Source of the DNA: a virus
DNA: 24,723 bases
Reading direction: 5' to 3' (one strand)
IMG/VR virus record: IMGVR_UViG_3300048800_000246
Coordinates: 1-24,723 of that record
Made by a program: the position numbers and the translations under genes. The first letter of the stretch is position 1; each line of letters opens with the position of its first letter. This document shows positions 3,001 to 24,723 of this stretch, piece by piece. The notes under the pieces were generated by a model that was not told the origin of the DNA, ran no database searches, and was given only the letters and a program-made list of their open reading frames with translations.

Positions 3001-3117
3001 CAACCTTGTACCCGCACAGCATAACTGGAAGAACGGATTCTTGCGCAATCCTTCCCAATTGCCGTCGGCAGCGTCCTTGACCGCGGCACGGAAGTGCTTG
3101 AATGTGTGGTTGCTCAC
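1..3117 (-). CDS. STAND/NACHT-type NTPase with C-terminal HEAT-like repeats, degenerate P-loop
   Basis: Seen: about 1038 aa from a GTG at 3117, which has GGAG five bases upstream; the frame stays open to 3264, but no better start is visible there. A helical N-terminal region of about 240 residues matches nothing I know. At about residues 266-275 lies APLGGGLSTL, a NACHT-like P-loop in which the usual Lys is Leu. NLILDGWDEM, a good NACHT Walker B, is at about 343-352. The C-terminal half is leucine/alanine-rich helical repeats of HEAT type. Known: NACHT-HEAT proteins are signal-transducing ATPases, and many bacterial ones are anti-phage sensors. Inferred: a defence-type sensor, perhaps one that no longer hydrolyses ATP. 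No N-terminal nuclease or protease effector is recognised. The gene lies next to mobile DNA, divergent from a recombinase, and ends in TAG at the window edge. The NACHT call is good; the role is uncertain. Confidence 0.75.
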   Translation of the reverse strand: MSNHTFKHFRAAVKDAADGNWEGLRKNPFFQLCCAGTRLAAKSEADEWTRERAFFTFLEERCLTLIRRAVVGSSPTERLIDACRLYAQAFLGEYYSAATLEKRLRDESHGSSLYGARPMAEQLLSRVAEKVPELAAVHPEELITELHGPVSRDTFERSVRRALSRLHDTCTTEIFGNGRAAASDSPIAKSNASIKIGSLTLSPEEADLWHRVLEATREQCSSFDTVFGRLPIEASIPRLGVLLTSEERGPVRADAVVQRYAHVLVSAPLGGGLSTLAAQMARELTSDDTHLTIMLSLASHGAAVATNGLLHTFVHDLWGKSQPEEAPLLEQLLHKATSHNSLNLILDGWDEMETDSAGLKEELSSFERYVYFCHTPCPAISHPPHDVHLALLDPSNEEIAGWLYTLLKVTQGKFSEAQAVIILDLLTQDAIAELNGSKPLVLAIALALTRDRRQAVPAAEVLWHVIDRSLANVRVPGGASSSMRSAVREWLAQLALWMLWGAPPSMKRRKDDTLWHIPSSLLEPPALSSQPLSYSAVPLIQRLNFAQRSGIIHETEMHTVAFANPWLQRILAAEAIVRQPEFALELTSLENRAVLRFAAWVSAQTHGRAAALQEVIGNYRNPREHTHLEWMLFLAELLAQFATGNAQTHWAQTTRSVLEQKLFATLRACPFVNEQLLIGRALAALGSQQALAYCRECLADHTDLYPAERLVLIRQLRWFASRDAAVALASAARSTDNAEEICAEAIRALCKLACSDGIIALRDLVSTAAEAQRKWLVRILRTMREPVARFFLLTMGDEAIPETLAESSAQMSRGYVIGRFEQLEARDIPLSPSTNAATQGQDNLTDVRLIEQLIGSATAGHAHERHAAAFLLNRVPPTLDAHSELNRQTALRLLLMVESETDPESRWAAYRVLKLGAPPEIFGDLTRLLAGAVVSGHFAARALIDILASRQFMCQVLESRSVPDASRLLLMLRFGFHVGVDYATLGQGRAVFSLSDGREVHTCAELSALLDPLGGNAVLGGLPNNYRGLRPKLGELLK

Positions 3118-3604
3118 GGATGCTCCGCAAAGCATAGCCATCGGCACCTGCGGCAAAACTGCGGAATTCTTGCGCCGTGCGTGCGGCAAATTCGTTGTGC
3201 CTTGCTGCGCGGTATGGTAGGGTATGGCCGGGAATTGCACTCGCTCATGGCGGCAGTATAGCACGAAGATATTCGGACTTGTAGCCCCCCCCCCATGCTA
3301 TTTCGCTAAGCCACGCGGGAGATTCTTGAGATTCGGACGGCGGGGTAATCGACCGCGCGGTGGTCCTTCCGGCCCCAGCTGTGCTCAGTTCATTGCGGCG
3401 CTGCAAATGTAAGCTACAGCCCAGAGCGCTTTAGCGCGCGCTGCTGGATACAAAATACGGGGCATCGGTGGTTGGGGAAGAGCCGTAGGGGCTGGTTGAT
3501 GAAGAGCATGACGACCACTACTTCGAGTTCGATGCATATCGAGGTGAGGCGAGACCGAATAGCTTTGAACTGGATGATTCTAACGAATAGGACGGTTCGA
3601 ACAT
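3118..3604. other. Intergenic region between NACHT gene and recombinase operon
   Basis: No convincing gene lies here. It holds the leader of the minus-strand NACHT gene, a run of ten C at 3285-3294, and a GC-rich hairpin-like stretch near 3423-3445. Two short overlapping plus-strand frames at about 3490-3611 have weak starts and ordinary composition, so they are not called as genes. Confidence 0.5.
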
Positions 3605-3633: not shown

Positions 3634-3805
3634 AAAGCACGCACGCGGCGGGCGGCCATTAAAGGTGATCGCGCAGCCGGCCAAACATGCGCGCACCAGC
3701 GACGAAGCGCTGATCGACTTCTTCACCACCGTCTTACTGAAAGCCGTCGAGCGCGGCGCGTTCACGCTGGAATCCAGTTACGGGAGCGGTCCGGATGAGC
3801 AATAG
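3605..3805 (+). CDS. Small unknown protein upstream of and overlapping recombinase 1
   Basis: The open frame encodes up to 66 aa from a TTG at 3605, or 46 aa from a GTG at 3665. From about 3660 onward, codon use is strongly GC-biased at third positions, as in real genes nearby. The first codons (including two ATA) look less coding and overlap a TATAAT box, so the shorter form is favoured. The stop lies 11 bp inside the recombinase gene, which suggests translational coupling. The sequence includes SDEALIDFFTTVLLKAVERG, a probable amphipathic helix. No family is recognised. A small accessory to the recombinase, such as a directionality or expression partner, is possible from position alone. Confidence 0.4.
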   Translation: MDSTDVRSIIKHARGGRPLKVIAQPAKHARTSDEALIDFFTTVLLKAVERGAFTLESSYGSGPDEQ

Positions 3806-5396
3806 CCCCTTCAAAGCAGGCTCGCGCGTAGTCACGTATCTTCGCCACTCGCCCGGCGACCAGCAGTCCATCGATTCGCAAGAGCACGCCGTGCGCCAGT
3901 GGTGCGCGCAAGAAGGATTGGCGTTGCACCGGCTGTACAAAGACGAGGCGCGCTCGGGAACGACGCTCGTGGGCCGCGATTCGTTCCTGCAAATGATGAC
4001 CGATCTGCAAGGCAAGGACGGGACCTCGGGCGTTGTCCTGTGGTCCCTTTCTCGTTTCGGGCGCGACTACGACGAGGCCGACTATCATATGGCGCTCTTG
4101 CGCAAGCGCGGCTACGATATTTACTCGATGACCGACGACGTGCCAACGGGCCGCTTCGGGCGCGTCATGGAAGCGGTGCATCTGTGGAAGGCCGAGGAAG
4201 ACAGCGTGCGCATCGGTAAGGACGCCCAGCGCGGATTGCGCTGGCTCGCCGAGCAGGGTTTCGCAGCGGGAGGCTTCCCACCGCACGGCTACAAAAAGAG
4301 CGAGCCGGTCGAAGTGGGCAAACGCAAGAATGGCACGACACGCCTGGCCTACCGCTGGGAAATAGACTCCGAGCAGGAAATTTTCGTACGGCAGGCGTGG
4401 CGCATGAAGCTGGAAGGCCATAACAATTGGGACATTCATCATGCGACCAAACTGTTCAAATCCCTTAATTGCTGGACGCATTTCTTTGATAATGAAACCT
4501 ACACCGGCACGCGGCTGTGCGGCGACCTGAAGGTGCCCGGCGCGCATCCTGCTTATGTCTCACGCGCCGACTTCGATCGCGTGCGGGCGGTAAAGAAGCC
4601 GGCGCGCATTCGGGGCGGCGAATGGTCAGAGACCCAGCACCCTATGCGTCAAAAGTCAGACAGCCCGTACTACCTCTCCGGTCTCCTGCGCTGTGGCTAC
4701 TGCGGCGCGGCGATGGTTGGCAGTAACGGTCCCGACCAGACGTATTACTATCGCTGCGGCAACCGGCAGCGCCAAGGTCAGGAAGTATGCGTGCAAAAGT
4801 CTATCGTCGCCCACCACCTGCACTCCGTCCTGTTCGACTGGATTGCTCACGAGATTTACTGTTTCGAGAATCTGGTGAAGTGGCGCGACGAGCTGGATGA
4901 GTCTCTCTCACGCTACAAGGGGGACTTCGTAACCGAGCGCCTTGCGCTCATGCGGAAGCAGGGCACGCTGCGCAAAAAGATCGCCAATCTGCTGAACCTT
5001 TATGAGAATAATCCCTCTCAGGACGCGTCAGACCGGCTGACGCTGCGCCGACAGGAGATGGCGTCGCTGCAAGCGGACATCGAGCGCGTGCGAGGACTGA
5101 TTCAGGTAAAGCCGACGCCCCTGAGCGACCTGGAGTTGCGGGCCGCGTCAGAGGCGTTTGCTGAGTTGCTGGCGGGGAGCGAGCGTCCCCTCATCCGTCA
5201 GGGAGTTAAGACAGTCATCGCGGGAGCCGAACTGTACTCTGACCGCATGATTGTGCAGTATTTTCCGCCAATCTGTGTTAGCAAGTCAATGCCCCCACGG
5301 GAAGGTGGGGACTTAATTGGCGCTACGCAGGCTTCACACTCGGGACCGCGGCGAGCCGGCTGCAGTCCTGGAATATTGCGCGCACCCAATCTCTGA
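3795..5396 (+). CDS. Large serine recombinase (resolvase + recombinase + zinc ribbon)
   Basis: This 533-aa protein has the three parts of the large serine recombinases, which catalyse site-specific integration and excision. The N-terminal resolvase domain (about 11-150) opens with VTYLRHSPGDQQSIDSQ, where Ser19 is the expected nucleophile, and contains LWSLSRFGRD. The recombinase domain follows (about 160-290). A zinc ribbon uses C300, C303, C321 and C332. A coiled-coil segment of about 370-440 ends the recognisable protein. The last 30 or so residues, after the FPP near 5270, look unlike the family. They are encoded by a GC hairpin and by the tail of the opposing recombinase gene, so the natural C-terminus may have been replaced. 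The ATG at 3795 overlaps the small upstream ORF. The family is certain; the element it mobilises is not. Confidence 0.9.
   Translation: MSNSPFKAGSRVVTYLRHSPGDQQSIDSQEHAVRQWCAQEGLALHRLYKDEARSGTTLVGRDSFLQMMTDLQGKDGTSGVVLWSLSRFGRDYDEADYHMALLRKRGYDIYSMTDDVPTGRFGRVMEAVHLWKAEEDSVRIGKDAQRGLRWLAEQGFAAGGFPPHGYKKSEPVEVGKRKNGTTRLAYRWEIDSEQEIFVRQAWRMKLEGHNNWDIHHATKLFKSLNCWTHFFDNETYTGTRLCGDLKVPGAHPAYVSRADFDRVRAVKKPARIRGGEWSETQHPMRQKSDSPYYLSGLLRCGYCGAAMVGSNGPDQTYYYRCGNRQRQGQEVCVQKSIVAHHLHSVLFDWIAHEIYCFENLVKWRDELDESLSRYKGDFVTERLALMRKQGTLRKKIANLLNLYENNPSQDASDRLTLRRQEMASLQADIERVRGLIQVKPTPLSDLELRAASEAFAELLAGSERPLIRQGVKTVIAGAELYSDRMIVQYFPPICVSKSMPPREGGDLIGATQASHSGPRRAGCSPGILRAPNL
5283..5314. repeat. GC-rich hairpin inside 3' end of recombinase 1
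   Basis: CCCCAC (5293-5298) and GTGGGG (5305-5310) form a perfect 6-bp stem around GGGAAG. Outer arms AAGT (5283-5286) and ACTT (5311-5314) also pair. Such AAGT..CCCC..GGGG..ACTT hairpins resemble the subterminal palindromes of IS200/IS605-type elements. No transposase is nearby, so this would be a remnant. It could also act as a bidirectional terminator between the two convergent recombinase genes. Confidence 0.4.
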
Positions 5397-6882
5397 CCAC
5401 CATTTTACTGATTTGCCCCGTTAAGTCAACCTCGATGCGCTCGAAGAGATCAGCGATCGCGCGCCGCTGTTCCTTCGGCGTGCCATGCGCCAGGATATCG
5501 GCGAGGCTGTCAAGCTCCTGAAACACCGCGTCGAGGCTCAGTGGTCGCGGATCCAGCTTGCCCCGCAACTCGTCGAGCGCCGCCGACGTCGCCCGCTTCT
5601 GCTGATCATACTGCGCCCGGTCGATATCGCCCTCGATGTAGAGCTGCTTCATGCGTTCCCGCTTGGCTTCCAGGTTGCGCATGGCTGCGACCGCGTCGGC
5701 GTGCTCCGGCGCCGCATGCAGCCGATCCTCGACGCGCCGGCGCAGATCCTCGCGCGCCTCGGGCGACAGTCTCAGCGTGGCCAAGCTGTCCAGCACTTGG
5801 CGCTCGATCGCCACGGCGTCGGGTCGGCGGGCGCGCCGCATGCACACCCGCCCGCGATGCACGTAGATCGGCCGGCCGTACTTCAGCAAACCCCGCATCG
5901 GTTCCCCGCACGCCGCACAGACAAGCACCGGCACGAGAATGTAGTCACGCCGTTCCTGGCTGCCGTGCGGTTTCATCATGGCACGCCGGGCCCGGACCAC
6001 CCGCTCAGCGAGCTCGCGGCTGATGAATGGCGCGTGCTGTCCCTTGCCGGCGCCCACACGCTCGGCGAGTGCTACGATCATGTCGCCGCGTTCGTCCAGG
6101 TCGAATGGCAGCGTCATCGCCTTGCCGTGTCCGCGCACAATGAAGCCGGCGTATGTCAGCACGTTTGAGATGATCGAGCGCACTGAGTAGCGGTCGAACG
6201 GCGCCGGCTGATGCGCACGATCGCGGAAGCGCAGCCCCTGGGCATTGAGAAAGAATGGTAGGTTATAGATCGAATACTTGCCGGTCGCGTAGGCTTCAAG
6301 GACGATCCGGCATGCCGGCCAGTCGTCGGACTCGACCAGGATGCCGGCCTCGTCGCGCTTCGTGCCATACGGCGCATTGCCGACGTGCTTGCCTTGCTCG
6401 CGCTTAAAGCCAATGGCGACGGTCGCACGCTCGCTCGTTATTTCTCTCTCCCAGGCGGCGAAGATCAACGAGATCCCCAGCATGGCGCGCCCGTTGGCCG
6501 TGGTCGTGTCGATCTGCTGCTTCAGCGAGATGAACTGGACGCCGCGCTTGTTGCACTCGTCGAGGAAGTTGTAGAAGTCGCGCGGCGATCGCGATGCGCG
6601 CGCCAGGTCGGCGACGATCACCGCGGCCACGTCGGGCCGGCCCAGCTGCGCCTTCAGCCGGCGCCACTCCGGACGATGCTTCTCGCTGCCGCCGCTGCGG
6701 TGGCCTTCGGCGTCGACAAACGTCTCGGCAAGCCAGCCGTGCACCTTGGCAGCCTCGGCGCACATCGTCACCTGGCGCTCGGGCGAGATTTCGTCGCGCT
6801 TAGTTTTGACGACGCTCTTGCGCGCGTAGATCAACGCGACGCGGCGCGAGCTGGTCGGGCCCAGAGGGCTTGTGCGGTTCAC
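5323..6882 (-). CDS. Large serine recombinase, convergent with recombinase 1
   Basis: This 519-aa protein begins at a GTG at 6882. The resolvase domain (about 14-155) has ALIYARKS with Ser23 as probable nucleophile, then ISPERQ and VIVADLARASRSPRDF. The recombinase domain includes GNAPYGTKR (about 168-176). The zinc ribbon is less regular than in the neighbour: C322 and C325, then a Y-V-H-R-G-R-V-C stretch with only one further Cys, so a His may be a ligand. A charged coiled-coil of about 395-450 follows. Its stop lies 74 bp inside the end of the opposing recombinase gene. It is only distantly similar to recombinase 1, so this is not a duplication. Inferred: it is the integrase of the element extending to the right, with the attachment junction near 5.3 kb. 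Confidence 0.9.
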   Translation of the reverse strand: MNRTSPLGPTSSRRVALIYARKSVVKTKRDEISPERQVTMCAEAAKVHGWLAETFVDAEGHRSGGSEKHRPEWRRLKAQLGRPDVAAVIVADLARASRSPRDFYNFLDECNKRGVQFISLKQQIDTTTANGRAMLGISLIFAAWEREITSERATVAIGFKREQGKHVGNAPYGTKRDEAGILVESDDWPACRIVLEAYATGKYSIYNLPFFLNAQGLRFRDRAHQPAPFDRYSVRSIISNVLTYAGFIVRGHGKAMTLPFDLDERGDMIVALAERVGAGKGQHAPFISRELAERVVRARRAMMKPHGSQERRDYILVPVLVCAACGEPMRGLLKYGRPIYVHRGRVCMRRARRPDAVAIERQVLDSLATLRLSPEAREDLRRRVEDRLHAAPEHADAVAAMRNLEAKRERMKQLYIEGDIDRAQYDQQKRATSAALDELRGKLDPRPLSLDAVFQELDSLADILAHGTPKEQRRAIADLFERIEVDLTGQISKMVVRDWVRAIFQDCSRLAAVPSVKPA

Positions 6883-8242: not shown

Positions 8243-9248
8243 CTACTTCCGACCAAACGCGGCGCGCACCGCGCTCATGGCGCCCAGGCCTGCATCCTGG
8301 ATGTAGCCGCGCATCACGGCCTCCGACTGGTGGCCGCTCTGCGCCATGATGTCGCGTGAGAGCTCGCCGGCGCTGGCGGCCTCCGTGATGAACCCGCTGC
8401 GCAGTGAGTGGCCCGCGAACTGGCTCTCCTCAAAGCCGGCACGCGTGGCAGCGTTCTTGACCACCCGCGCGACCGTCTTATCCGTCAGCCGGCCGTCGCG
8501 CACGTGGCCCCAGCGGTCTATGGGCCGGAAGAGCGGGCCGCTCTGGATCTCAGCAGCTTTCAGCCAGGTGCGCAGGGCCTGGACCGGGCAGAGCGGCCCC
8601 TCGATCGGCGGTATAAATTTGCTCGTGCCTTTCTTCGCCTGGTCGGTCTTGCTCTGGCGCACGCGGATCGTCAACATCAAGCCGATCTGCGCGTCGGCGA
8701 CGTCGAGCGCCACGAGCTCCGAGCGGCGGAAGGCGCCGGCGTAGCCCACCAAGAGCAGTGCGCGATCACGTCGGCTCATGAGGCTGTCGCCGGCGAGCGC
8801 GCCGATCATTGCCTCCAACACTGCCAGGCGGACCGGTGCCTTCTTCTGCGCTGCAGTGCCCAGCTTATATCGAATCCCTTTCATCACGACCCGCACGTGC
8901 TCGTCGTTGGTCGGATCCAGCTGGCCGTCGAGACGATGGTAGGCCGCGATCGCTGCGAGGGCGCGCTCCAGTGTCGAGATGCTCTTACGCGCTTCTGCCA
9001 GCAGCAGGAGATAGGCCACGATCACCACAGGCGACGCTGGCAGGGCGCAAACCTGGCGCTCGATACCAGAATGCCTCGAAGGCCTCGCGCGATGTAGCGT
9101 AGGCCCGTTTGGTGCTTGCCGCGTAGGAGTCTCGGGCATAAGCGCGGGCTTGCTGCTGTTCTATGTCCGATAACGTCCCTTCGCGGACATCAGCCGGCGC
9201 CACGACCATGGCCACCTGGCGCCGGCGCGCCCCGGCGGTTGCTTTCAT
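8243..9248 (-). pseudogene. Tyrosine recombinase/phage integrase, frameshifted
   Basis: The catalytic domain is intact in one frame (8243 to about 9057): an Arg in GAFRRSEL, Lys in RQSKTDQ, the HxxR box GHSLRSGF, SGHQSEAVMRGY with the second His, and the nucleophilic Tyr. The N-terminal SAM-like core-binding segment (ARDSYAASTKRAYATSREAF) lies in a different frame that starts at the ATG at 9248, preceded by AGGAG five bases away. Skipping one base near 9050 (for instance one C in GCGCCAGG) joins FEAFWYRA to QVCALPASPVVIVAYL, as in family members. The span of 1006 nt is one more than a multiple of three. Known: such enzymes integrate and excise phages and islands. A sequencing error would restore a working gene. 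Confidence 0.8.
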
Positions 9249-10606: not shown

Positions 10607-13174
10607 CTAGATTCCTGCCAGCGAGCGGATGAGCATATAGTTCATCGACAGGGATGCTTCGCCGCCCTGCGCCTGGTTGACGGTCAGGCTCATGTTGTTG
10701 CTGTTGACAATACTTGAAGCGCCGCCTATTACTGTGCTTGCCATCGAGGCGCTTGCGCCTGCCACGCCGGCCGCGCCCTGGCCCATGCCCATCTGCAAGC
10801 CGCGTGCAATGTCGCGGCCCATGCCTGCCATGAGCTCGGAAGGCGAGCCTAGCTGCAGATGAAAGTTAAAGCGGTCGGTGATGTTGGTCTTGATGAAATC
10901 GTCAAGCATCGACTGCAGTTCGCCCGCCTTATCCTGAATGCCTCTTATGAAGCCGTCGATCACGTCGCCGCCCCAGCGCAGCGCGTCATCCTTCAGGCCG
11001 GCGAACCATCCGCCGATGTTGCCCAGCAAGTCGCCAAGCGCGTGCAAGATCAAGTCGCCACCCAACGACCAGATGCGCTGCATGTCAGTCCACAGAGTAT
11101 CAGTCGTGTTCTTCAGGTCCACGCCAAGTTGATCCCAGTTGCCAGTAAGAACGTCCAGCAGCATATTGGCGACCCCGCCCAGGAAATCCGCGCCCTGCTG
11201 CCATATCGCGCTGATGAAGTCCCACGCCCACGTCACAACCGCCACGATCTGTTCGCCATGATCTTTCCAGAATGCTTGAATGGCAGCGAGCCACGTCTCA
11301 GTAGCCTGCGCGAGGCGCGCCAAGCCTGCCTGTATCGAGCCCGTCATGTCGCTGAAACGCTCGGCCAGTGAATTCGTCGTGGCGCTCGTCGCTGCGAAGC
11401 CCTGCTGCGCGCTGCCGAGCCAGCCGGTCAGCTGCGTGACGAATGCCTGGATCTTCGGCCCATACTCGACGAATGCCTTTTGAAACGACGTGGCGACAGT
11501 GCCGACCTGCTTGATAAATTCGTCTATCTGTGGCTTATGCTCGGTAAACGCCTTTTGCAACTCTACGCCGACGGCCTGAATGTCATGGCCCAGATCTTGC
11601 ACATTCTTCGTTGTCGCATCATTGCCAAAGGTTTTAATCAGCCAGTCCGTTGCGCTTTGCAGGGTGGGCAGGAACGCGGTCACCAGAGGCTCGGTCAAGT
11701 CAACGAGCTGGTTGTGGAGCCGCTCTAATTTCCCGCTTGTGGTATCGCCCATCGCCGCTGCCAGGCCGCCAACTTTGGCTTCCACCGCCGCCAGGACAAC
11801 CGCTTGCGCGCCGGCGATGTCGTTGTGCTTCTGCATCGTTTTGATGGAGGTAATTTGCTCTGCTGTCAAGTAGATTTGCGCCCTGCGCAGTAAGCCCATA
11901 TTTTTGATTGGGTCTTCCAGTACCCGGCCCAGCATGTCTACTGCGGGTGTTAGCTCCATGCCCGTTTTTGCTGCAAAGTCCTCCCCGGCCTGCATCAGCG
12001 CCGGCATAGTATCTTTGCCGATCGTCTCGAAAGTAGAAGCCATCATCTCTGCTTGGATGATCTGTTCTTTCGAGTAGGTCGTGACCTTACTGATCGAGGT
12101 CGCCAGATCCACAAGCGATTTTCCGCTCATGTGCTCGATCGTCTGTGTCACCGCCGGTGAAAAGCCAAGTGCCACGTCCCCCCACGTTGCCTTAATTTTG
12201 GCCGCCTGTTTCTCGTAGGCCGCTGTCGTCTTATCCAACTGTTTGGTCTCGGCCTCTTGCATCTTTGTCTGCATCGCCGTGTAAGACGCCAATTGTTTGG
12301 TGTGTGCTTCATCGGCGATCTTAACTTCTTTGTCGTAGCGCACCTGCGCGGCGACGGTTGCTTTGTCGAAGGCTTTATTTTCTTTTTCGATTTGCCGCTC
12401 GATGGCTTGCAGCCGCCTGTCTTCCTGCTTCTTGGCGGCGGCCTCGGCTTTTGACTCTTGCAGCTTGGCGGCGTCCTCTTGTGCCGTGGTGGTTTTGTCC
12501 AACGCTTCAAGCTCTATCTGGAGCCGCGCGTACTCTGCGGATGAGTGCGTTGCTGCCATCTTTTCGAGGATGGACGTGCGCTTGGTATTCGACGTGGTTT
12601 CGATGCCGGCCAGCTTGTCAGCGAGGTTCTGCTGCCGCTGCTCTTGCGCATCGGCAAAGTCGGACTTCACCGTGTCCATTGCTTCGTTGAGTGATGCGAT
12701 GCGGTCGGCGTGAGAGGCTTCCATGTTGTTCAGTTGGTCGTTGAAGGCGCTCGCCTTATCGGCCATCTTCGAGAGAAAATCTGTGTTCGACGTTTCGATC
12801 TGTTGCGTCATGGCGGCCACCTTTTCGGCGGTCGCCGTTGAGAGGTCGCTCATCCGCTGATTGTAGGAGTCGGTCAGCTCGCTCATCTTGGCGATGGCAT
12901 CAGCGTTGGCCCCAGTGACGATCTCGGTCGTCGCGCCGATGTTGCCCGTGATGACATTCAGCCGCGTCAAAACGTCTTCAAATCCCATTGCGTTTGAAAC
13001 CGCGTCGCCCAGGCCGCCGACAAACGCGGCGATGCCATCGACGAGTGCCAGGATCGGAACTAGGGCGGAGCCAGCAGCGCCCTCCATACCTCCGAGGAGT
13101 CCTGTGAAATTCTGGATGATGTCGCTGCCCATGTCATCGATCGAAAGCGCGCCTACAATATCTAGGTCACCCAT
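10607..13174 (-). CDS. Phage tail tape measure protein
   Basis: This is 855 aa from the ATG at 13174, which overlaps the stop of the upstream gene by eight bases; the frame is open to 13366 but that part belongs to the neighbour. The N-terminal part is Gly/Ala/Ile-rich and hydrophobic, followed by a long charged coiled-coil rich in Lys, Gln and Ala (about 90-350). A middle region with KSLVDLATSISKVTTYSKEQI resembles tape measure core domains. Hydrophobic Trp-rich segments follow, and near the end comes GSPSELMAGMGRDIARGLQ, a signature of tape measure C-termini. Known: the protein sets tail length and assists DNA ejection in siphoviruses and myoviruses. No tail-tip, baseplate or fibre gene follows, so it is probably orphaned. 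Confidence 0.88.
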   Translation of the reverse strand: MGDLDIVGALSIDDMGSDIIQNFTGLLGGMEGAAGSALVPILALVDGIAAFVGGLGDAVSNAMGFEDVLTRLNVITGNIGATTEIVTGANADAIAKMSELTDSYNQRMSDLSTATAEKVAAMTQQIETSNTDFLSKMADKASAFNDQLNNMEASHADRIASLNEAMDTVKSDFADAQEQRQQNLADKLAGIETTSNTKRTSILEKMAATHSSAEYARLQIELEALDKTTTAQEDAAKLQESKAEAAAKKQEDRRLQAIERQIEKENKAFDKATVAAQVRYDKEVKIADEAHTKQLASYTAMQTKMQEAETKQLDKTTAAYEKQAAKIKATWGDVALGFSPAVTQTIEHMSGKSLVDLATSISKVTTYSKEQIIQAEMMASTFETIGKDTMPALMQAGEDFAAKTGMELTPAVDMLGRVLEDPIKNMGLLRRAQIYLTAEQITSIKTMQKHNDIAGAQAVVLAAVEAKVGGLAAAMGDTTSGKLERLHNQLVDLTEPLVTAFLPTLQSATDWLIKTFGNDATTKNVQDLGHDIQAVGVELQKAFTEHKPQIDEFIKQVGTVATSFQKAFVEYGPKIQAFVTQLTGWLGSAQQGFAATSATTNSLAERFSDMTGSIQAGLARLAQATETWLAAIQAFWKDHGEQIVAVVTWAWDFISAIWQQGADFLGGVANMLLDVLTGNWDQLGVDLKNTTDTLWTDMQRIWSLGGDLILHALGDLLGNIGGWFAGLKDDALRWGGDVIDGFIRGIQDKAGELQSMLDDFIKTNITDRFNFHLQLGSPSELMAGMGRDIARGLQMGMGQGAAGVAGASASMASTVIGGASSIVNSNNMSLTVNQAQGGEASLSMNYMLIRSLAGI

Positions 13175-13604
13175 TCGGCCACCGCCTTTTCCCGACAGCT
13201 TTTGCTGCCGGTCCAAACAGCGCCACCATTTTGATGGCGAGTGCAAGCCTCTGCTTAAACGACAGATGCGGGAGTGCTCGAAGGCGCGAACTCTCTTGGT
13301 TGAGAGCTTCAGCCATTCGCTCGTGCAAACCGAAAAACAATCGCCAGAAATCCTCTTCACTAGCATCCCGAACGTCGGCTACGGTGAACCCACACAGAAC
13401 GGCGATCATTGGGCCTAGTTCATCCCTGGTTTTCGCCAGCGCAGGTCTCAATGCAACCACCCTCACCCGGTCAACCGTGAGGCGCTGGACGATGAAGAGG
13501 TAGTGCTTATTCCCGAGCAGCCAATCACGTTCCTGCTCAGTCGGAACACGAAAATGCGCAAGCCGGCCTGTTGACAGTCGAAGTGTGAATGTTTCAGATC
13601 CCAT
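13167..13604 (-). CDS. Putative tail assembly chaperone
   Basis: This 145-aa protein has a good start at 13604 (GGAGGG seven bases upstream). It ends eight bases inside the tape measure gene. The N-terminus is a beta-type segment (FTLRLSTGRLAHFRVPTEQERD), the rest helical (EDFWRLFFGLHERMAEALNQ). Sequence alone does not identify it. In tailed phages the gene just before the tape measure is usually the tail assembly chaperone, often expressed as two forms by frameshifting. I see no obvious slippery site leading to a second frame, so this is a positional call. Confidence 0.5.
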   Translation of the reverse strand: MGSETFTLRLSTGRLAHFRVPTEQERDWLLGNKHYLFIVQRLTVDRVRVVALRPALAKTRDELGPMIAVLCGFTVADVRDASEEDFWRLFFGLHERMAEALNQESSRLRALPHLSFKQRLALAIKMVALFGPAAKAVGKRRWPNG

Positions 13605-13608
13605 GTCT

Positions 13609-13701
13609 CTACCCTCCGTCGATCATTCGTGGCCTCACGGCGTAGCGTGTGGCCGGCCTCGCGCAACCCACGTGGTTATAATCTTGACATGTCAATGCCA
13701 T
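13609..13701 (-). CDS. Short ORF (30 aa) spanning palindrome block B
   Basis: The ATG at 13701 has AAGGA four bases upstream and lies 14 bp past the large terminase stop. The peptide begins MALTCQDYNHVGC; its TAG lies four bases before the start of the next gene. The start region coincides with the palindrome TTGACATGTCAA. It could be a coupling or leader ORF, or chance. The palindrome blocks at 15847 and 10584 also open short frames, MALTCQWYGRG and MRLTSQSHKKAGA. Confidence 0.3.
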   Translation of the reverse strand: MALTCQDYNHVGCARPATRYAVRPRMIDGG

Positions 13702-13703
13702 AG
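13684..13703 (-). repeat. Palindrome block B (TTGACNNGTCAA), between terminase and tail genes
   Basis: The minus strand reads CTATGGCATTGACATGTCAA, with a 12-bp perfect palindrome. It lies in the gap of about 110 bp between the large terminase and the tail chaperone, where head genes would be expected in a complete phage. Confidence 0.6.
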
Positions 13704-13714
13704 CATCCTTGCCC

Positions 13715-15457
13715 CTACCACCCCCGGCGCTGCGCCGCCGCCAGGCGCGGATCGTAGCCGGGTGGCAGTTGCGGCGCTGCCTGAAATGCAGCGCCCCGCG
13801 CGAAGTCCGCGATCTCGGCGTCGAGTCCGCTCAGACCCTCTTCCAGGTCCGCGCGGGCCGGCACCCTGCCACCTTCTGGATCCGCTTCAAGCGGCGGCGC
13901 TTCGAGCGGCTCACCCGGCTTTGCAAACCCTTCGCCTTTTGCCCAGAGAGCCATGTCTTCATCGCTCGGCGCCGCGCCGGCGGGAAGCAGGAGCTCCGTC
14001 CACAAAAAAACGAACGAATCGAGTCTTCCTGGGCTCTTCGCTGAGCCAGCGGTGTAACCGCACAGCTCGCCTTCGAGCTTGTCAAAATGCCCCATGTGGT
14101 GGATTTTTTTCTGCTCTGAAAGGGCCGCCACTGGTTCGGCTCTCGTGATCTTTCCGCGTGAGGCATGAATGAGCTTGACGGGCGGAGCGCCTTTCACCGT
14201 CCCTATCGTGACTTTCACCATCTCTCCGCCATTATTTGACTCCGCGACCATCCGGTCACCCCTGTATTTGTTATACGCGCCGACGGCGATGCTTGCCCAC
14301 ACTTCCGGCGACGCAATCTGCGACAGGTCTTCGAGCAGGAAGCCGTGAATCTCAGTGAACCCCTTGCAGCGGCACGGCCCGATGCCGCCCACGACGATGC
14401 CCGCTTCGTCGCTGGTCGCGTTGCCCGTCGCCGATGGGTCAATCGCCACAGCGATACGAGTAAGCTGCGGGATCGTCGTCACGCGCAGCGCGTCGATGTC
14501 CGTCTGGATCCAGAGCCCGCCTTGTGCAATCACCACATCCTGCTGGCATTCCCGAACGAAAGCCCGCGAGCCCCAAGTCTTAACGAAACCCAGGCACTCA
14601 ACGAGGCCCTGCCCTGCCCATGTGGGCGTGCCCTCGATAACCAATTCTCCGTTTTCGCTCTTGATCGCGAAATCCTCCAACGCTTTGTACGGACCGCTGA
14701 CGATTCTGTCGGCCAGGAAGTCCGCGCGACCGTCCGCCAGCCTGGCAAAGACACCGTTCGGCAGCACCAGGTTCTGGATGGCCAGCACCGCGCAGTCTGG
14801 GGAACCCACCGGCAGCACCGTCGCGGTCAGGGTGTCGATCTTCTTGGTCGTCGCCGCCGGCGAATCTTGCAAGTCGTCAATGTCGTCGAGCACCATCAGA
14901 TCCGGCCGATCCGCTTCAACCTTGATCCCTCGCGTGGCCGTGTCCAGGCCCAGCGCGTCGATAGTGTAATTTGCTGTGCGCAATCGGTTGCGTCTCCAGC
15001 CCTTCGACATTCCATATTTGTTGACGGCCCGGTCTACTCCGCACGATTCCAGCATGGCCGCAATCGTTGCGACGTGCTTGTCAGCCTGGTCCTGCGTTTC
15101 GCTGATGTACACCGCGTACCGACGGATGCGCCGCTCGCAGAGCGCCACGACCATCAGCTCCGCACTTGTTGACTTGGCGCCGCCACGCGGCCAGATAGCC
15201 ACAAATGGGCGTGGGCGCTCCGCGGGCCGGATGGACCAGACCCACTCCCAGAAGACGACATGCCGCTCAGCGAAGCCAGCGACGACGTATTTGTCAAAGA
15301 GTGAGCGCAGCCAGGCTTGCCAGCCTAGTGCGGCCAGTCTCTCACTGGTCGAAGTCGGTTTGCTCAGTGCCGGCGCCTGCGGTGGTGACGCCAGCCCGAT
15401 TGTCGCTGGCGTCAGACTGAATCCTTGCGACGGTTTCCGATGGAATAAAGCTGCCAA
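13715..15457 (-). CDS. terL: Phage terminase large subunit
   Basis: This 580-aa protein is the packaging ATPase-nuclease. Walker A is at about residues 88-97 (AIWPRGGAKS), Walker B at 187-193 (LMVLDDID). The C-terminal nuclease domain has AVAIDPSATGNATSDEAG (Asp340), RMVAESNNGGEMV (Glu406) and RLDSFVFLWTELL with a third acidic residue. The C-terminal 60 residues are acidic and disordered. The only start before the conserved part is a TTG at 15457 inside the small subunit gene, with GGCGGTG upstream. The 116-bp overlap is long, so the start is uncertain. Powers DNA translocation into the prohead; no prohead genes are present here. Confidence 0.92.
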   Translation of the reverse strand: MAALFHRKPSQGFSLTPATIGLASPPQAPALSKPTSTSERLAALGWQAWLRSLFDKYVVAGFAERHVVFWEWVWSIRPAERPRPFVAIWPRGGAKSTSAELMVVALCERRIRRYAVYISETQDQADKHVATIAAMLESCGVDRAVNKYGMSKGWRRNRLRTANYTIDALGLDTATRGIKVEADRPDLMVLDDIDDLQDSPAATTKKIDTLTATVLPVGSPDCAVLAIQNLVLPNGVFARLADGRADFLADRIVSGPYKALEDFAIKSENGELVIEGTPTWAGQGLVECLGFVKTWGSRAFVRECQQDVVIAQGGLWIQTDIDALRVTTIPQLTRIAVAIDPSATGNATSDEAGIVVGGIGPCRCKGFTEIHGFLLEDLSQIASPEVWASIAVGAYNKYRGDRMVAESNNGGEMVKVTIGTVKGAPPVKLIHASRGKITRAEPVAALSEQKKIHHMGHFDKLEGELCGYTAGSAKSPGRLDSFVFLWTELLLPAGAAPSDEDMALWAKGEGFAKPGEPLEAPPLEADPEGGRVPARADLEEGLSGLDAEIADFARGAAFQAAPQLPPGYDPRLAAAQRRGW

Positions 15458-20711: not shown

Positions 20712-21815
20712 TTACGGGTTGGCTTGCAGGTATACGAGCGAGAGTCGGCTGCCTTCGATAGTATCTTTGCATGTCGCAAGGTCGTCCCTGGTTGCTGCGA
20801 GCTCCTTCGCGTTCTTAGCGAACGCGACTGCGAGAATTGCTTTATCGCAAAAGTCCGCCGCGTTCCATAGGTCCCTTCTACCGCGTTCGATCTGCGATTC
20901 CGTTACAGGGGCCTTTGCAACAACGTCCTTTGCGCTGGCGATCTGGGCCTCTTGGTGAATGACTGCCTGGGCCCAGACCTGGCCCTTTACGTCTATGCCA
21001 AACTGGGGGGCATCAGCCAGGGTCTCGGTTGCCGCGATTGCCTTTTCGATTGTTAGCACGCTCGTATTCAGAATCGCGAATGCTGTCAGGTCGTTGGCCG
21101 TCCATGCAGACGCGGGGGCCGCTGGCTGCGCGGCGGGGGCGGGGACGGCTTGCAGGGTTACGAGCGCCTGCCGTCGAGCTTCGATAGTAACTTTGCATGT
21201 CGTAAGGTCGCCCCTGGTTGCTGCGAGCTCCTTCTCGTCTTGCGCGTTCGAGACCACGCCCGTTACTATGACGCAAAACTCTGCCGCAGTCAGTAAAAGA
21301 TTTCTACCGCGTTCGATCTGCGATTCCGTTACAGGGGCCTTTTCAACAACGCCCTTTGCGCTGTAGATTCGGGCCGATTGGACACTGACTGCACTGTACC
21401 AGGCCTGTCCCTTTGCGTCTGCGCCCAACTGGGGGGCATCAGCCAGGGTCTCGGTTGCCGCGATTGCCTTTTCGATTGTTAGCGCGCTCGTATTCAGAAT
21501 CGCGAACGCTGCCAGGTCGTTGGCCGTCCATGCAGATGCGGGGGCCGTGACTTGCGTGGTGGGGGCAGGGCGCGCGATTGGCCTCGGAGTATTGACCTGC
21601 GGCGCGACCCCCGTCGCTGTAGCGGTTGGCCGTGGAGCACTTGTTGGCGCGGCGTCTGCCTGAGTAGTAGTCGTACGCGTCGTGGGTGTTGATGATAGCG
21701 CAATGCCGCACACGGCGCACACTACACACACCCCGGCGAGCACACCGCCGGCTCCGAGCACCAGGAATAACTTCGCGAGCGGCCCGGACTTCCAGAACTG
21801 TTGGAATGTCTTCAT
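20712..21815 (-). CDS. Membrane-anchored protein with two tandem 142-residue repeats
   Basis: This 367-aa protein starts at an ATG at 21815 with GGAGG about seven bases upstream. Residues 14-41 form one transmembrane segment (LAKLFLVLGAGGVLAGVCVV and on), preceded by positive charge, so the rest should be outside the cytoplasm. A low-complexity Thr/Pro/Ala stalk covers about 42-90. Two copies of a helical domain follow at about 91-225 and 233-366, offset by exactly 142 residues with no gaps (both contain SAWTANDL, FAILNTS, APVTESQIERGR, ELAATR, DL.TCK). Each has two conserved Cys that could form a disulphide. No family is recognised. It could be a surface or superinfection-related protein carried by the prophage; this is inference. 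Confidence 0.65.
   Translation of the reverse strand: MKTFQQFWKSGPLAKLFLVLGAGGVLAGVCVVCAVCGIALSSTPTTRTTTTQADAAPTSAPRPTATATGVAPQVNTPRPIARPAPTTQVTAPASAWTANDLAAFAILNTSALTIEKAIAATETLADAPQLGADAKGQAWYSAVSVQSARIYSAKGVVEKAPVTESQIERGRNLLLTAAEFCVIVTGVVSNAQDEKELAATRGDLTTCKVTIEARRQALVTLQAVPAPAAQPAAPASAWTANDLTAFAILNTSVLTIEKAIAATETLADAPQFGIDVKGQVWAQAVIHQEAQIASAKDVVAKAPVTESQIERGRRDLWNAADFCDKAILAVAFAKNAKELAATRDDLATCKDTIEGSRLSLVYLQANP
20718..21119 (-). repeat. Internal tandem duplication, copy 2
   Basis: Encodes residues 233-366. It is close in DNA sequence to 21141-21545, with near-identical stretches such as 21013-21100 against 21433-21520. The unit is 426 bp in frame. Confidence 0.7.
21141..21545 (-). repeat. 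Internal tandem duplication, copy 1
   Basis: Encodes residues 91-225 of the same protein. The middle of the unit has diverged far more than its ends, which hints at different selection on the two domains or at gene conversion. Confidence 0.7.
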
Positions 21816-21861: not shown

Positions 21862-22344
21862 CTACGCCTTCAACTTTCGCCTGGCGCCGGTCGCTGCGCC
21901 GTTGCTGGGTGCTTTCTTCGCAGCGCCTCGGGGCTGGGCGGCAGCATGCCGCTTTGCGGGCGTCTCGGCCGACTTGCCCACAGCCCCCTTGCTACCGTTC
22001 TTCCTTGGTACCAGCCGCACCTCCAGCCGCGCGTCCAGCGCGTCGGCCACGCGCCGCACGAAGTCCAGATTCCTTATCGCACGCGTAGACTCCATGCGCG
22101 CGATGCTCGGCTGCGGTGTGCCCATGCGCTCGGCCAATTGCCGCTGGCTCAGCTTGCGCTTCAGGCGCAGCGCAATAATCTGCGAGACGAGCTCAAACTC
22201 TGGAGCGAGCTCCGCGTCGGCTTTGGCAAATTCCGGGTCCTGCATCTGTTTGGCAAAGTAGTCGTCGATCGGCACACTGGCCGGCACCCGTCTGGCTGTG
22301 CCGTTGCTCTTGTGCGCCATCGCTGCATGATTCTGTTTGTCCAT
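21862..22344 (-). CDS. HigA-type antitoxin, XRE-family helix-turn-helix
   Basis: This 160-aa protein starts at 22344 with GGAGG seven bases upstream, inside the end of the toxin gene; only three bases separate the two genes. The helix-turn-helix (about 54-110) has ALRLKRKLSQRQLAERMG, then TPQPSIARMESTRAIRNLDF. After it come a short strand (LEVRLVPRK) and a 45-residue Ala/Lys/Arg-rich tail that is unusual for HigA and resembles histone-like tails. Known: such antitoxins bind the toxin and repress the shared promoter. The palindromic operator upstream of the toxin gene is its likely target. Confidence 0.8.
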   Translation of the reverse strand: MDKQNHAAMAHKSNGTARRVPASVPIDDYFAKQMQDPEFAKADAELAPEFELVSQIIALRLKRKLSQRQLAERMGTPQPSIARMESTRAIRNLDFVRRVADALDARLEVRLVPRKNGSKGAVGKSAETPAKRHAAAQPRGAAKKAPSNGAATGARRKLKA

Positions 22345-22347
22345 CGT

Positions 22348-22716
22348 CTAACCTCCCTCAGATTGGCGCGCGATATAGTCGGCCATGCGCCGCTCTGCCG
22401 CCTCCATCTCGCGCGCCGGCGTCTTGTCAGTCCGCTTGCTGAACGCATGCAGCAGGATGAAGCGCTGCCCGGCCGTTGCGAAGTAGAGCACCCGGTAGTC
22501 GCGTTTCCCCGACGGGATGCGCAACTCAAACAACTTGCCGCGCAGGTGGCGACAGTGCGGCATGGCGAGCTGCGTACCGTGCGCGGCCAACAACCGGAAA
22601 TACCCCCAGATGCGCCGGCGGTCCGTGGCGTCCAGAGTGTCTAACCACTGCTCGACCGGACGCTGCTCCTTCGCATCCTGGTAGAAGGAAACTGCCCAGC
22701 GCGCCGGTTGGCTCAT
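22348..22716 (-). CDS. HigB/RelE-like toxin, phage Gp49-like family
   Basis: This 122-aa protein has the features of the Gp49-like HigB family: WAVSFYQDAKEQRPVEQWLD, then LRGKLFELRIPSGKRDYRVLYFA, and ILLHAFSKRTDKTPAREMEAAERR. Known: these toxins are ribosome-dependent mRNA endonucleases. The Arg, Lys and Tyr residues of the conserved core are present. The ATG at 22716 is chosen over 22725 because the -10 box covers 22724-22729. The predicted transcript would begin at about 22717, so the message would be nearly leaderless. The toxin is first and the antitoxin second, the usual order for higBA. Confidence 0.8.
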   Translation of the reverse strand: MSQPARWAVSFYQDAKEQRPVEQWLDTLDATDRRRIWGYFRLLAAHGTQLAMPHCRHLRGKLFELRIPSGKRDYRVLYFATAGQRFILLHAFSKRTDKTPAREMEAAERRMADYIARQSEGG

Positions 22717-22723
22717 TCCATTC

Positions 22724-22752
22724 ATGATAACATTCCTGTTATGGGGTGTCAA
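22724..22752 (-). promoter_or_regulatory. Promoter and operator of the toxin-antitoxin pair
   Basis: On the minus strand TTGACA (22747-22752) and TATCAT (22724-22729) are exactly 17 bases apart. The palindrome ATAACA-GGAA-TGTTAT (22727-22742) lies between them and overlaps the -10, so a bound antitoxin would block polymerase. Transcription should begin near 22717, adjacent to the toxin ATG. Confidence 0.65.
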
Positions 22753-22829: not shown

Positions 22830-23387
22830 TTATTCCCTTCGCGGTATGAGGCCTCTTCGCTCATACCCTTTTCGGATCTTGTTAATCCTGTCGGCATTAC
22901 GAACAGCAATGCGCCATGCACCCCGCAGCCATGGCACGTGCTTCAGAGCGGTATCACCAAATTGGGTTTTGGCATAGCGGACAATTTGACTCCACTTCGG
23001 TCGCGGCTCATGCATAGCGAATGTATCGAGATCCGATCTAAACTCGCGAATCGTTTGATTCCAGTTCGGCCCCGAACTGTACGACCCGATCTGTACTTTG
23101 GCCCATGTTTCGCCGCGATCCGCGAGATATTGAAGACGCTCCTGAAACTTGCGGCCGTGAGACATGCAGCCGATATGGAGCATTTCATGTAAAAGAACCT
23201 CACGCAGCTGTTTGCCTTTGAGGTTGGAGCGCAGGTAGATGGTTCGTCGCTTTGGCACGCATTCGCCCTGGAAGTCACCCAGCTTTTGGTATCGAGCGAG
23301 GCTGGAAAACTTGACTCGGTAGCGCGGCTTCCTCCCATTCCAGAATTGCTCGTTCAATTCATCAAACAGTTCGGATAGTTGGCTCAT
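22830..23387 (-). CDS. SprT-like zinc metallopeptidase
   Basis: This 185-aa protein starts at an ATG at 23387 (AGGAGG eight bases upstream); the frame is open to 23699, with another ATG at 23459. It opens with LSELFDELNEQFWNGRKPRY, the usual SprT beginning, followed by the HExxH site in LLHEMLHIGCMSHGRKFQERL (His67, Glu68, His71, with His77 as the probable third ligand). A C-terminal segment of about 75 residues (WNQTIREFRSDLDTFAMHEP and on) has no zinc ribbon. Known: SprT/Spartan-like proteases cut proteins bound to DNA. Phage and island copies are common and their targets are unknown. Confidence 0.8.
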   Translation of the reverse strand: MSQLSELFDELNEQFWNGRKPRYRVKFSSLARYQKLGDFQGECVPKRRTIYLRSNLKGKQLREVLLHEMLHIGCMSHGRKFQERLQYLADRGETWAKVQIGSYSSGPNWNQTIREFRSDLDTFAMHEPRPKWSQIVRYAKTQFGDTALKHVPWLRGAWRIAVRNADRINKIRKGYERRGLIPRRE

Positions 23388-23487
23388 GGCTTCCGCCTCC
23401 TGTGGTGGACAAGATATGATTGCCCCGCCGGCAATCGTAGGCTCGTATTGTAGGAGCATTTGGCTTACCCCGCCTCCTCCCTTACGC

Positions 23488-23712
23488 TCAGCCGGCGCGA
23501 TGCTGCCGAGCCGCGGCGTCAAAGCCTTGCGTGTATGCCTCGATCGCACGGCGGCCCTGATGCCTGTGGAAGTCGTCGCCGTATGTGTACTGGCGCTCGC
23601 CCTTCTGACCATCTTGCCAGCCCATGACAAAAAGGGAAAGAAGGTTATACGAGCGAATGAATCGCTTGGGAACTTCAACGCCTTTGGGCAGCTGGTCAAG
23701 AATGTTAGGCAT
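23488..23712 (-). CDS. Small unknown protein (74 aa)
   Basis: The ATG at 23712 overlaps the stop of the double LuxR-HTH gene by eight bases and has GGAG nine bases upstream. The sequence starts MPNILDQLPKGVEVPKRF; the middle is FVMGWQDGQKGERQYTYGDD, and the end RAIEAYTQGFDAAARQHRAG. The FxxGWxDG..G pattern recurs towards the end as YTQGFDAA, suggesting two copies of a short motif also seen in small phage proteins. No family name can be given. It is probably in one transcript with its neighbours. Confidence 0.6.
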   Translation of the reverse strand: MPNILDQLPKGVEVPKRFIRSYNLLSLFVMGWQDGQKGERQYTYGDDFHRHQGRRAIEAYTQGFDAAARQHRAG

Positions 23713-24565
23713 TTCTGATTGCTCCTTCCGTTTCCGTCATGCAGACTACTGCCGGCGCGACCGCTTCACCCTCCTCGAACAATTCGCGGTGCTGCAGCAG
23801 CTCGGCGACACAGTGCACTCGCAGCCGCTTGTAGATGTTTGCCCGGTGTGCCCTTGCTCTGACAAATGGAATCTTCAGCGCCTCGGCGATCTGTTCATTA
23901 GACTTGCTGACCGCGATCAACCTCGCGACTTCCTTCTCGCGCAAGGTCAGCGGCTCGGGGTCAGTTGGCGCCGGGTTGGCGCGCAGCCAAGTGGTCAGCG
24001 GCTCGGGGTCAGTTGGCGCCGGGTTGGCGCGCAGCCAGGTGGTCAGCCCCTGCGCGTCGATCACTCCGGTCTTGAAGAGAATCATGCCTCTATGCGTCAT
24101 GACCGTCGTCTTGTCGAGCCTGAGCGCTTCGGCGAGCTCGCGGCTGCTTTGTCCTGCGGCGATGCATTCGGCGACCTCGCGCTCCTCTGCTGTCAGCGGC
24201 CGCTGTACAATCGTTGAAAGTTCGGCGGCAGGCTGCAGGCTCTCCGGCACTCCGGCAAGGGCACTGGAGCAGGCGACCACACCCCCGCCAAGAGCGCGGG
24301 GCAGGTGAGCGGGTCGCGGCGCTGGTATTGCTTTTGTCCCCCAATCTTGAACTGTGAGGGGCGCGCCCAACAGCATCGGCGCGAATTCCGCGCGCAGCCC
24401 CAGCCCCAGCGCCACAGCCGTCAATACATCGCTCGCGCCCGCCTGGTAAGCGCGCCGCTCATCCGGATTTCTGTACGCTCTCACGCTCATCACGACTGCG
24501 GCGCCGCTGACTGCGGCAAGGACGCCGCTAATATGCTCCGCGACGACTTCGGCAAGTGGCTTCAT
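23705..24565 (-). CDS. Protein with two LuxR-type HTH domains
   Basis: This 286-aa protein starts at an ATG at 24565 that overlaps the preceding stop (ATGA). The first 120 residues are Ala/Leu-rich and fit no known sensor domain. HTH 1 (about 123-178) runs from PLTAEEREVAECIAAGQSSR through ELAEALRLDKTTVMTHRG. HTH 2 (about 206-262) runs from LTLREKEVARLIAVSKSNEQ through IAEALKIPFVRARAHRANIY. The linker holds two perfect copies of TTWLRANPAPTDPEPL. A tandem pair of LuxR HTH domains in one chain is uncommon and could bind two half-sites without dimerising. There is no receiver or autoinducer domain. It is likely a transcription regulator of the element. Confidence 0.7.
   Translation of the reverse strand: MKPLAEVVAEHISGVLAAVSGAAVVMSVRAYRNPDERRAYQAGASDVLTAVALGLGLRAEFAPMLLGAPLTVQDWGTKAIPAPRPAHLPRALGGGVVACSSALAGVPESLQPAAELSTIVQRPLTAEEREVAECIAAGQSSRELAEALRLDKTTVMTHRGMILFKTGVIDAQGLTTWLRANPAPTDPEPLTTWLRANPAPTDPEPLTLREKEVARLIAVSKSNEQIAEALKIPFVRARAHRANIYKRLRVHCVAELLQHRELFEEGEAVAPAVVCMTETEGAIRNA
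23947..24042 (-). repeat. 48-bp in-frame tandem repeat in the HTH linker
   Basis: Two copies of a 48-bp unit differ by one base (CAAGTGG against CAGGTGG). Each encodes 16 residues. Slippage would change the spacing between the two HTH domains without breaking the frame. Confidence 0.75.
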
Positions 24566-24723
24566 GGCTGTTTGCCTTTCGCCACCGGCGGCCGCAGCGA
24601 GAAGCCGGCTTTCTCGGCTTCATCCACAATGCGCCAGGTCAACCATTGGCGCGCGCGTTTGGAAAGTCTGCCGATCAACTCGACGGCATGCGAGACTGCT
24701 TTGATGTCCGCGGACATTGTCAT
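24562..24723 (-). CDS. Small unknown protein at window edge (53 aa or longer)
   Basis: The visible frame begins with an ATG on the last base of the window (MTMSADIKAVSHAVELIGRL) and ends KAGFSLRPPVAKGKQP, with its TGA overlapping the next ATG. The true start may lie outside. It is helical and basic (SKRARQWLTWRIVDEAEKAG), of the size and kind of small phage early proteins. No family is recognised. Confidence 0.5.
   Translation of the reverse strand: MTMSADIKAVSHAVELIGRLSKRARQWLTWRIVDEAEKAGFSLRPPVAKGKQP

Follow-up and report, generated by a model that had tools for sequence, protein, structure and literature searches.

The minus-strand open reading frame (ORF) at 23705–24565 of the virus record, whose 24,723 bases were analysed as a whole (the window), encodes a 286-aa protein from an ATG start. 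The protein is best explained as a phage- or prophage-encoded transcription regulator that carries two diverged LuxR/GerE domains in one chain. It comprises an orphan N-terminal part (residues ~1–117), a first HTH domain (HTH1), two 16-residue units, a second HTH domain (HTH2) and an acidic tail. The N-terminal 120 residues (24206..24565, minus strand) include a mildly hydrophobic stretch at residues ~7–30, and a tblastn search with them against phages and plasmids returned no match at E ≤ 1.

The regulator is the second ORF counted from the right edge of the record. Its ATG overlaps the TGA of an upstream 53-aa ORF (24562..24723, minus strand; ATGA), which starts at the record edge, and its end overlaps by 8 bp a downstream 74-aa ORF (23488..23712, minus strand) that has no Pfam match. 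With these two overlaps the regulator looks like part of an operon, which suggests that it shares one with the upstream 53-aa ORF. Elsewhere, the record encodes a phage terminase large subunit, a tape measure protein, a DnaG-type zinc-ribbon protein and a DUF3987 protein, as well as a tyrosine integrase (8243–9139) and two serine recombinases, which are convergent with overlapping ends (3795–5396, plus strand; 5323–6882, minus strand). The interval between the genes for the terminase large subunit and the tape measure protein (13167–13715) holds no recognisable portal or capsid gene; its sole minus-strand ORF of at least 120 aa, one of 145 aa, has no PHROG match. A tRNA-Phe call at 13747–13832 lies antisense within the terminase frame and looks spurious. 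On the minus strand at 21862–22752, a Gp49-like protein lies beside an HTH protein, a pair that we take to be HigBA-like toxin–antitoxin, and an SprT-like protein adjoins at 22830–23699. At the left edge of the record, a 1087-aa ORF (1–3264, minus strand) has a weak HEAT-repeat match below the cut-off and no NCBIfam or PADLOC match at E ≤ 0.01.

The Pfam GerE family (PF00196) matches the regulator twice, with an E-value of 2.4e-20 for the whole protein. HTH1 (24041–24199, minus strand; residues 123–175 by Pfam) scores 39.1 bits and HTH2 (23798–23953, minus strand; residues 205–256 by Pfam) scores 39.3 bits, so that each domain alone exceeds the curated cut-off of 23.5 bits, bearing out the observation of the earlier note that two different LuxR-type HTHs are joined in one chain. 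Alignment of residues 101–190 with residues 196–286 gave a score of 82, whereas 500 shuffles of the second stretch averaged 27.8 and reached at most 47. The accompanying statement that such domains normally occur once per protein is right as a generalisation, although plasmids supply other examples of tandem LuxR proteins.

Pfam detected neither a receiver domain nor an autoinducer-binding domain in the regulator at E ≤ 1, and its identification as a quorum-sensing receptor or as a NarL-type response regulator was rejected because these sensor domains are missing. Matches to PADLOC CARF models, whose best stretches fall within 115–164 (the HTH1 region), were taken as HTH similarity. The predicted HTH fold is common to the regulator and the NarL/FixJ-type response regulators (LiaR, VraR, DegU, NarL and ComA); these have one HTH and a receiver domain, whereas the regulator has two HTHs and no receiver that we could find. 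The phage LuxR-type quorum-sensing receptors are likewise LuxR-type regulators carried on phages and, according to the available text of PMC6456758, they bind autoinducers; unlike the receptors described there, the regulator has no detected autoinducer-binding domain.

HTH1 and both units were modelled from an alignment of seven rows (A3), six of them Alicyclobacillus domains. The model has a mean pLDDT of 72.9, with values of 78–87 across the domain, and comprises four helices, at residues 126–136, 141–148, 152–166 and 171–180 of the protein. The fourth of these (model residues 60–69) includes the first TTWLRAN motif, and the second TTWLRAN is predicted with middling confidence to form a further short helix at residues 190–196 (pLDDT blocks of 64–65). 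The 50 Foldseek matches listed for the model are LuxR/GerE-type regulators, as judged mainly from titles, with probabilities of 0.99–1.00; the E-values among those listed are at least 0.025, and none reaches 0.001. Comparison using VIA gave a Z-score of 8.4 with both LiaR (63 residues, 2.1 Å) and ComA (58 residues, 1.6 Å) and of 7.4 with DegU (64 aligned residues, model 9–72 pairing with DegU 161–224), and LuxR-type chains make up the VIA matches listed as well. At such values the tool cautions that helical folds may match by chance and that the Z-score by itself does not settle the matter. Sequence and predicted fold nonetheless agree that HTH1 is a four-helix LuxR-type HTH. The model of the whole protein is poor (mean pLDDT of 47; HTH2 blocks of 54–72), and the fold of HTH2 is therefore assigned from its sequence match.

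The pairing of the HTH1 model with DegU fixes the residue numbering for a comparison of DNA contacts. In DegU, as described in the available text of PMC9263151, DNA is contacted by R168, K194, K197, N198 and R212; R168 contacts the DNA backbone, its replacement by alanine gave the worst DNA binding among three mutants, and its position is occupied by Arg or Lys throughout GerE sequences. The equivalent residues in HTH1 are E127, T153, M156, T157 and A171, so that none of the five contacts is kept, and those in HTH2 are, in the same order, Arg209, Val235, Arg238, Ala239 and Val253. For comparison, an eight-seed profile was used to gather LuxR domains from 46 sequences (the window and 45 loci), giving 49 rows and 38 distinct domains; this is not a random sample and includes the two domains of the window, 16 from tandem genes and five from Alicyclobacillus. 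Across the collection the positions of K194, K197, N198 and R212 vary, and only R168 provides a strong test. Its position is Arg in 37 of the 38 distinct domains, with Arg209 retained in HTH2, and the exception is HTH1, which we do not class as a competent DNA reader because of Glu127.

Net charge separates the two domains in the same direction. Over 50 columns, with one of the 38 rows omitted for an early gap, HTH1 has a net charge of −2, the lowest of the 37, compared with +1 to +7 in the other 36 rows and +6 in HTH2. The recognition-helix stretch of HTH1 has a net charge of +2, at the bottom of, though still within, the 2 to 5 found in the other domains, which leaves room for some DNA contact. 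Judged by these residues, HTH2 is probably the main DNA reader and HTH1 a weak partner. HTH2, too, could be impaired, as it lacks residues that are otherwise nearly invariant: the position of DegU G179 is Gly in 37 distinct domains, HTH1 among them, and Ser220 in HTH2, and the first residue of the recognition helix, again Thr in 37 of 38, is Arg236 in HTH2.

These substitutions bear on how the domains might pair. According to the available text of PMC9263151, helix 10 is the main means by which LuxR domains pair; in DegU, the LuxR-type domain forms a dimer with that of another chain, and G179 lies at the dimer interface in a sharp turn. By analogy with DegU, two chains of the regulator could form a homodimer through HTH2 (or HTH1), leaving the other domain spare or in contact with a partner protein, for which an acidic HTH1 would be well suited. 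We regard this arrangement as possible but rather doubtful, as Ser220 of HTH2 replaces the canonical Gly of the DegU interface, and a linker of ~24 residues (eight with a single unit) would favour contact within the chain. The reading that we prefer is that one chain would provide both halves of the usual LuxR dimer.

The domains are joined across a tandem duplication. As the earlier note had it, two adjacent 48-bp copies are present; they are identical at 47 of 48 positions, and their single difference is synonymous (ACC/ACT, Thr). Tandem Repeats Finder reports a period of 48, 2.1 copies and 98% matches (score 199). Copy 1 (23996..24043, minus strand; residues 175–190) covers the end of the fourth helix of HTH1 and a proline-rich linker, and copy 2 (23948..23995, minus strand; residues 191–206), the duplicated segment, adjoins HTH2. 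In the whole duplication (23945..24047, minus strand), the 7-bp word GCTGACC occurs three times, once at each edge and once midway, with minus-strand starts at 24047, 23999 and 23951, 48 bp apart. When the window was matched against itself at offsets of 6–599 with at most one mismatch, the longest matches were 80 bp (offset 426) and 55 bp (offset 48), followed by 16 bp, which excludes chance as the source of the 48-bp repeat. The longer match corresponds to an in-frame 426-bp tandem duplication (20753–21570, 84% matches) in a 367-aa ORF at 20712–21815 (minus strand) that has no family match.

The linker had been described as being made of the two copies, but the opening residues of the first unit are predicted to form the end of the last helix of HTH1. 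With the first TTWLRAN inside that helix in the model, one unit's worth of sequence would be wholly extra. The spacing between the domains is 82 residues and, by subtraction, would be 66 with one unit. A change in unit number would shift this spacing in frame, as proposed, one unit being 16 residues. The duplication probably arose once, by a single slippage between two of the 7-bp GCTGACC words in a one-unit ancestor, which is the simplest history and would have taken the spacing from 66 to 82 residues; the added 16 residues would relax or lengthen the tether between the domains.

The repeat had also been called slippage-prone, a label that we infer from two units in one sequence. A near-perfect two-unit repeat can contract or expand; two copies are weak evidence for a contingency locus. 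If both domains bound DNA, gain or loss of units could reset their spacing and hence the operators bound, and such a tunable regulator would be in keeping with a near-perfect unit whose length is a multiple of three and with the second in-frame tandem duplication in the record. It is nevertheless improbable: only two units are present, no other number is documented from a relative or a read, and a proline-rich linker need not serve as a ruler. Moreover, the earlier note had set two things together against its own proposal, a repeat number fixed in all relatives and one domain without DNA-contacting residues, and the second is largely what HTH1 proves to be. We infer instead, as the best reading of the duplication, a linker extension that the protein tolerates, with no switch. 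That the second unit is absent from the real DNA and was introduced during assembly is very hard to credit, even for a sequence that comes from a virus record without reads, since the copies differ at one base, which plain doubling would not yield. Assemblers also collapse repeats more often than they invent them, which again counts against an artefact.

Searches of IMG/VR contigs with the whole protein, its HTH part or an alignment (A1), and with the terminase and the DUF3987 protein of the record, yielded no confirmed relative; these searches rely on short exact peptide seeds, which can miss distant kin. In species genomes (seed-based), phages and plasmids, nothing homologous to the whole protein was found either, and the whole window had no megablast match among 50,697 records of phages and 72,556 of plasmids. 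The peptide WLRANPAP, searched for as a degenerate DNA pattern, occurred in 11 stretches, and tblastn with 15 window proteins, including the regulator, found no match at these loci. At each of the six loci obtained from the species-genome search, one HTH was matched. A species-genome locus whose ORF was read whole (L002) looks like an ordinary response regulator, and the best match in the phage collection, a 201-aa ORF with one HTH (L008), was read in the same way.

Within the phylum to which the Alicyclobacillus genome belongs, 26 of 299 genomes were matched by a one-unit HTH query at E ≤ 1e-6, and the eight listed matches that span most of the query have one HTH each (ORFs of 218–282 aa), none of them tandem. 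A profile (A2) matched 287 of 398 genomes of the same phylum at E ≤ 1e-10, with no tandem pair among the matches listed; these are part of a longer list, for which at most ten candidates per genome were scored, and do not amount to a census. In the literature, mostly outside subscription journals, the titles and abstract openings listed include no two-HTH LuxR protein, and no LuxR protein with two HTH domains is described in the available text of PMC3246441, PMC8068269, PMC8228715, PMC11784139 or PMC5727362.

Tandem LuxR proteins are, however, not unique to this record, as plasmid precedents exist. Ten loci were fetched from tblastn matches to plasmids; one of them (L012) was read as a single-HTH response regulator and excluded from the tandem counts, and a further match on a Paraburkholderia plasmid (H77) lies outside the fetched set. 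Both domains are in one frame at four of the nine remaining loci: L010, on a Niveispirillum cyanobacteriorum plasmid (201 aa, with ~60 residues from a GTG before HTH1), L022, on a Cupriavidus campinensis plasmid (151 aa from a TTG), and the nearly identical L023 and L024, on Paraburkholderia plasmids (141 aa). The domain spacings of these genes are 78, 74, 73 and 73 residues, respectively, and the 82 residues of the regulator lie just above this range. Three of the four were compared with Pfam, and each contains two GerE stretches. At the other five loci (L011, L013, L021, L025 and L026), the two domains are in different frames, the second at an offset of +1 and a distance of 73 to 82 codons; these loci are from Cupriavidus, Paraburkholderia and Azotobacter, and overlapping genes, frameshifting or decay would all fit. 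Near the tandem gene in L023 and L024, PLSDB predicts a VIM-type beta-lactamase (629–1063, 435 bp).

Like the products of the in-frame plasmid genes, the regulator has its two GerE domains encoded in a single frame and separated by a linker. It differs from them in its repeated unit, which the plasmid linkers lack, in its orphan N-terminal part, where L022–L024 have almost nothing before HTH1, and in Glu127 at the R168 position, which is Arg in the plasmid HTH1s. In a tree of the 38 domains (56 columns), eight plasmid HTH1s form one group (94/89) and eight plasmid HTH2s another (93/80), neither of them starred, and both domains of the regulator fall outside these groups, on long branches (1.67 and 1.51, versus a median of 0.32). 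AU tests on these 56 columns only gave p values of 0.51 for HTH1 with the plasmid HTH1s, 0.49 for HTH2 with the plasmid HTH2s and 0.32 for the two domains of the regulator together. As none of the three groupings is rejected, independent fusion, common descent and internal duplication are each compatible with the data.

Long end branches, the loss of near-invariant residues from both domains, and a record without a recognised portal or capsid gene between terminase and tape measure could also point to a decaying gene, in which the duplication is neutral and the fused regulator, only weakly selected, is heading to loss. Against this, the 286-aa frame is intact and overlaps tightly with both neighbours, and both domains still exceed the Pfam cut-off; we consider decay unlikely.

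LuxR-type domains are textbook dimers, and the working that we propose for the regulator would supply the dimer from a single chain. HTH2, which is basic and has the Arg expected to contact the backbone, would read the DNA. HTH1, which is predicted to fold and has lost the contact residues, would act mainly as a partner through its last helix, its own DNA binding being weak or absent. We give about an even chance to this account as a whole, in which HTH2 reads DNA, HTH1 is its in-chain partner and a single slippage extended the linker with no switching. A bolder version is rather unlikely: the protein would be a natural single-chain LuxR heterodimer, with HTH1 a charge-reversed non-reader and HTH2 the reader, requiring no dimer assembly, and with its reach set by unit slippage. 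Judging from the plasmid tandem genes, the architecture may be a small class of its own, open to separate study. For LuxR-type regulation more generally, a pair in one chain with one domain apparently disabled for DNA contact would be a natural test of the need for two equal subunits.
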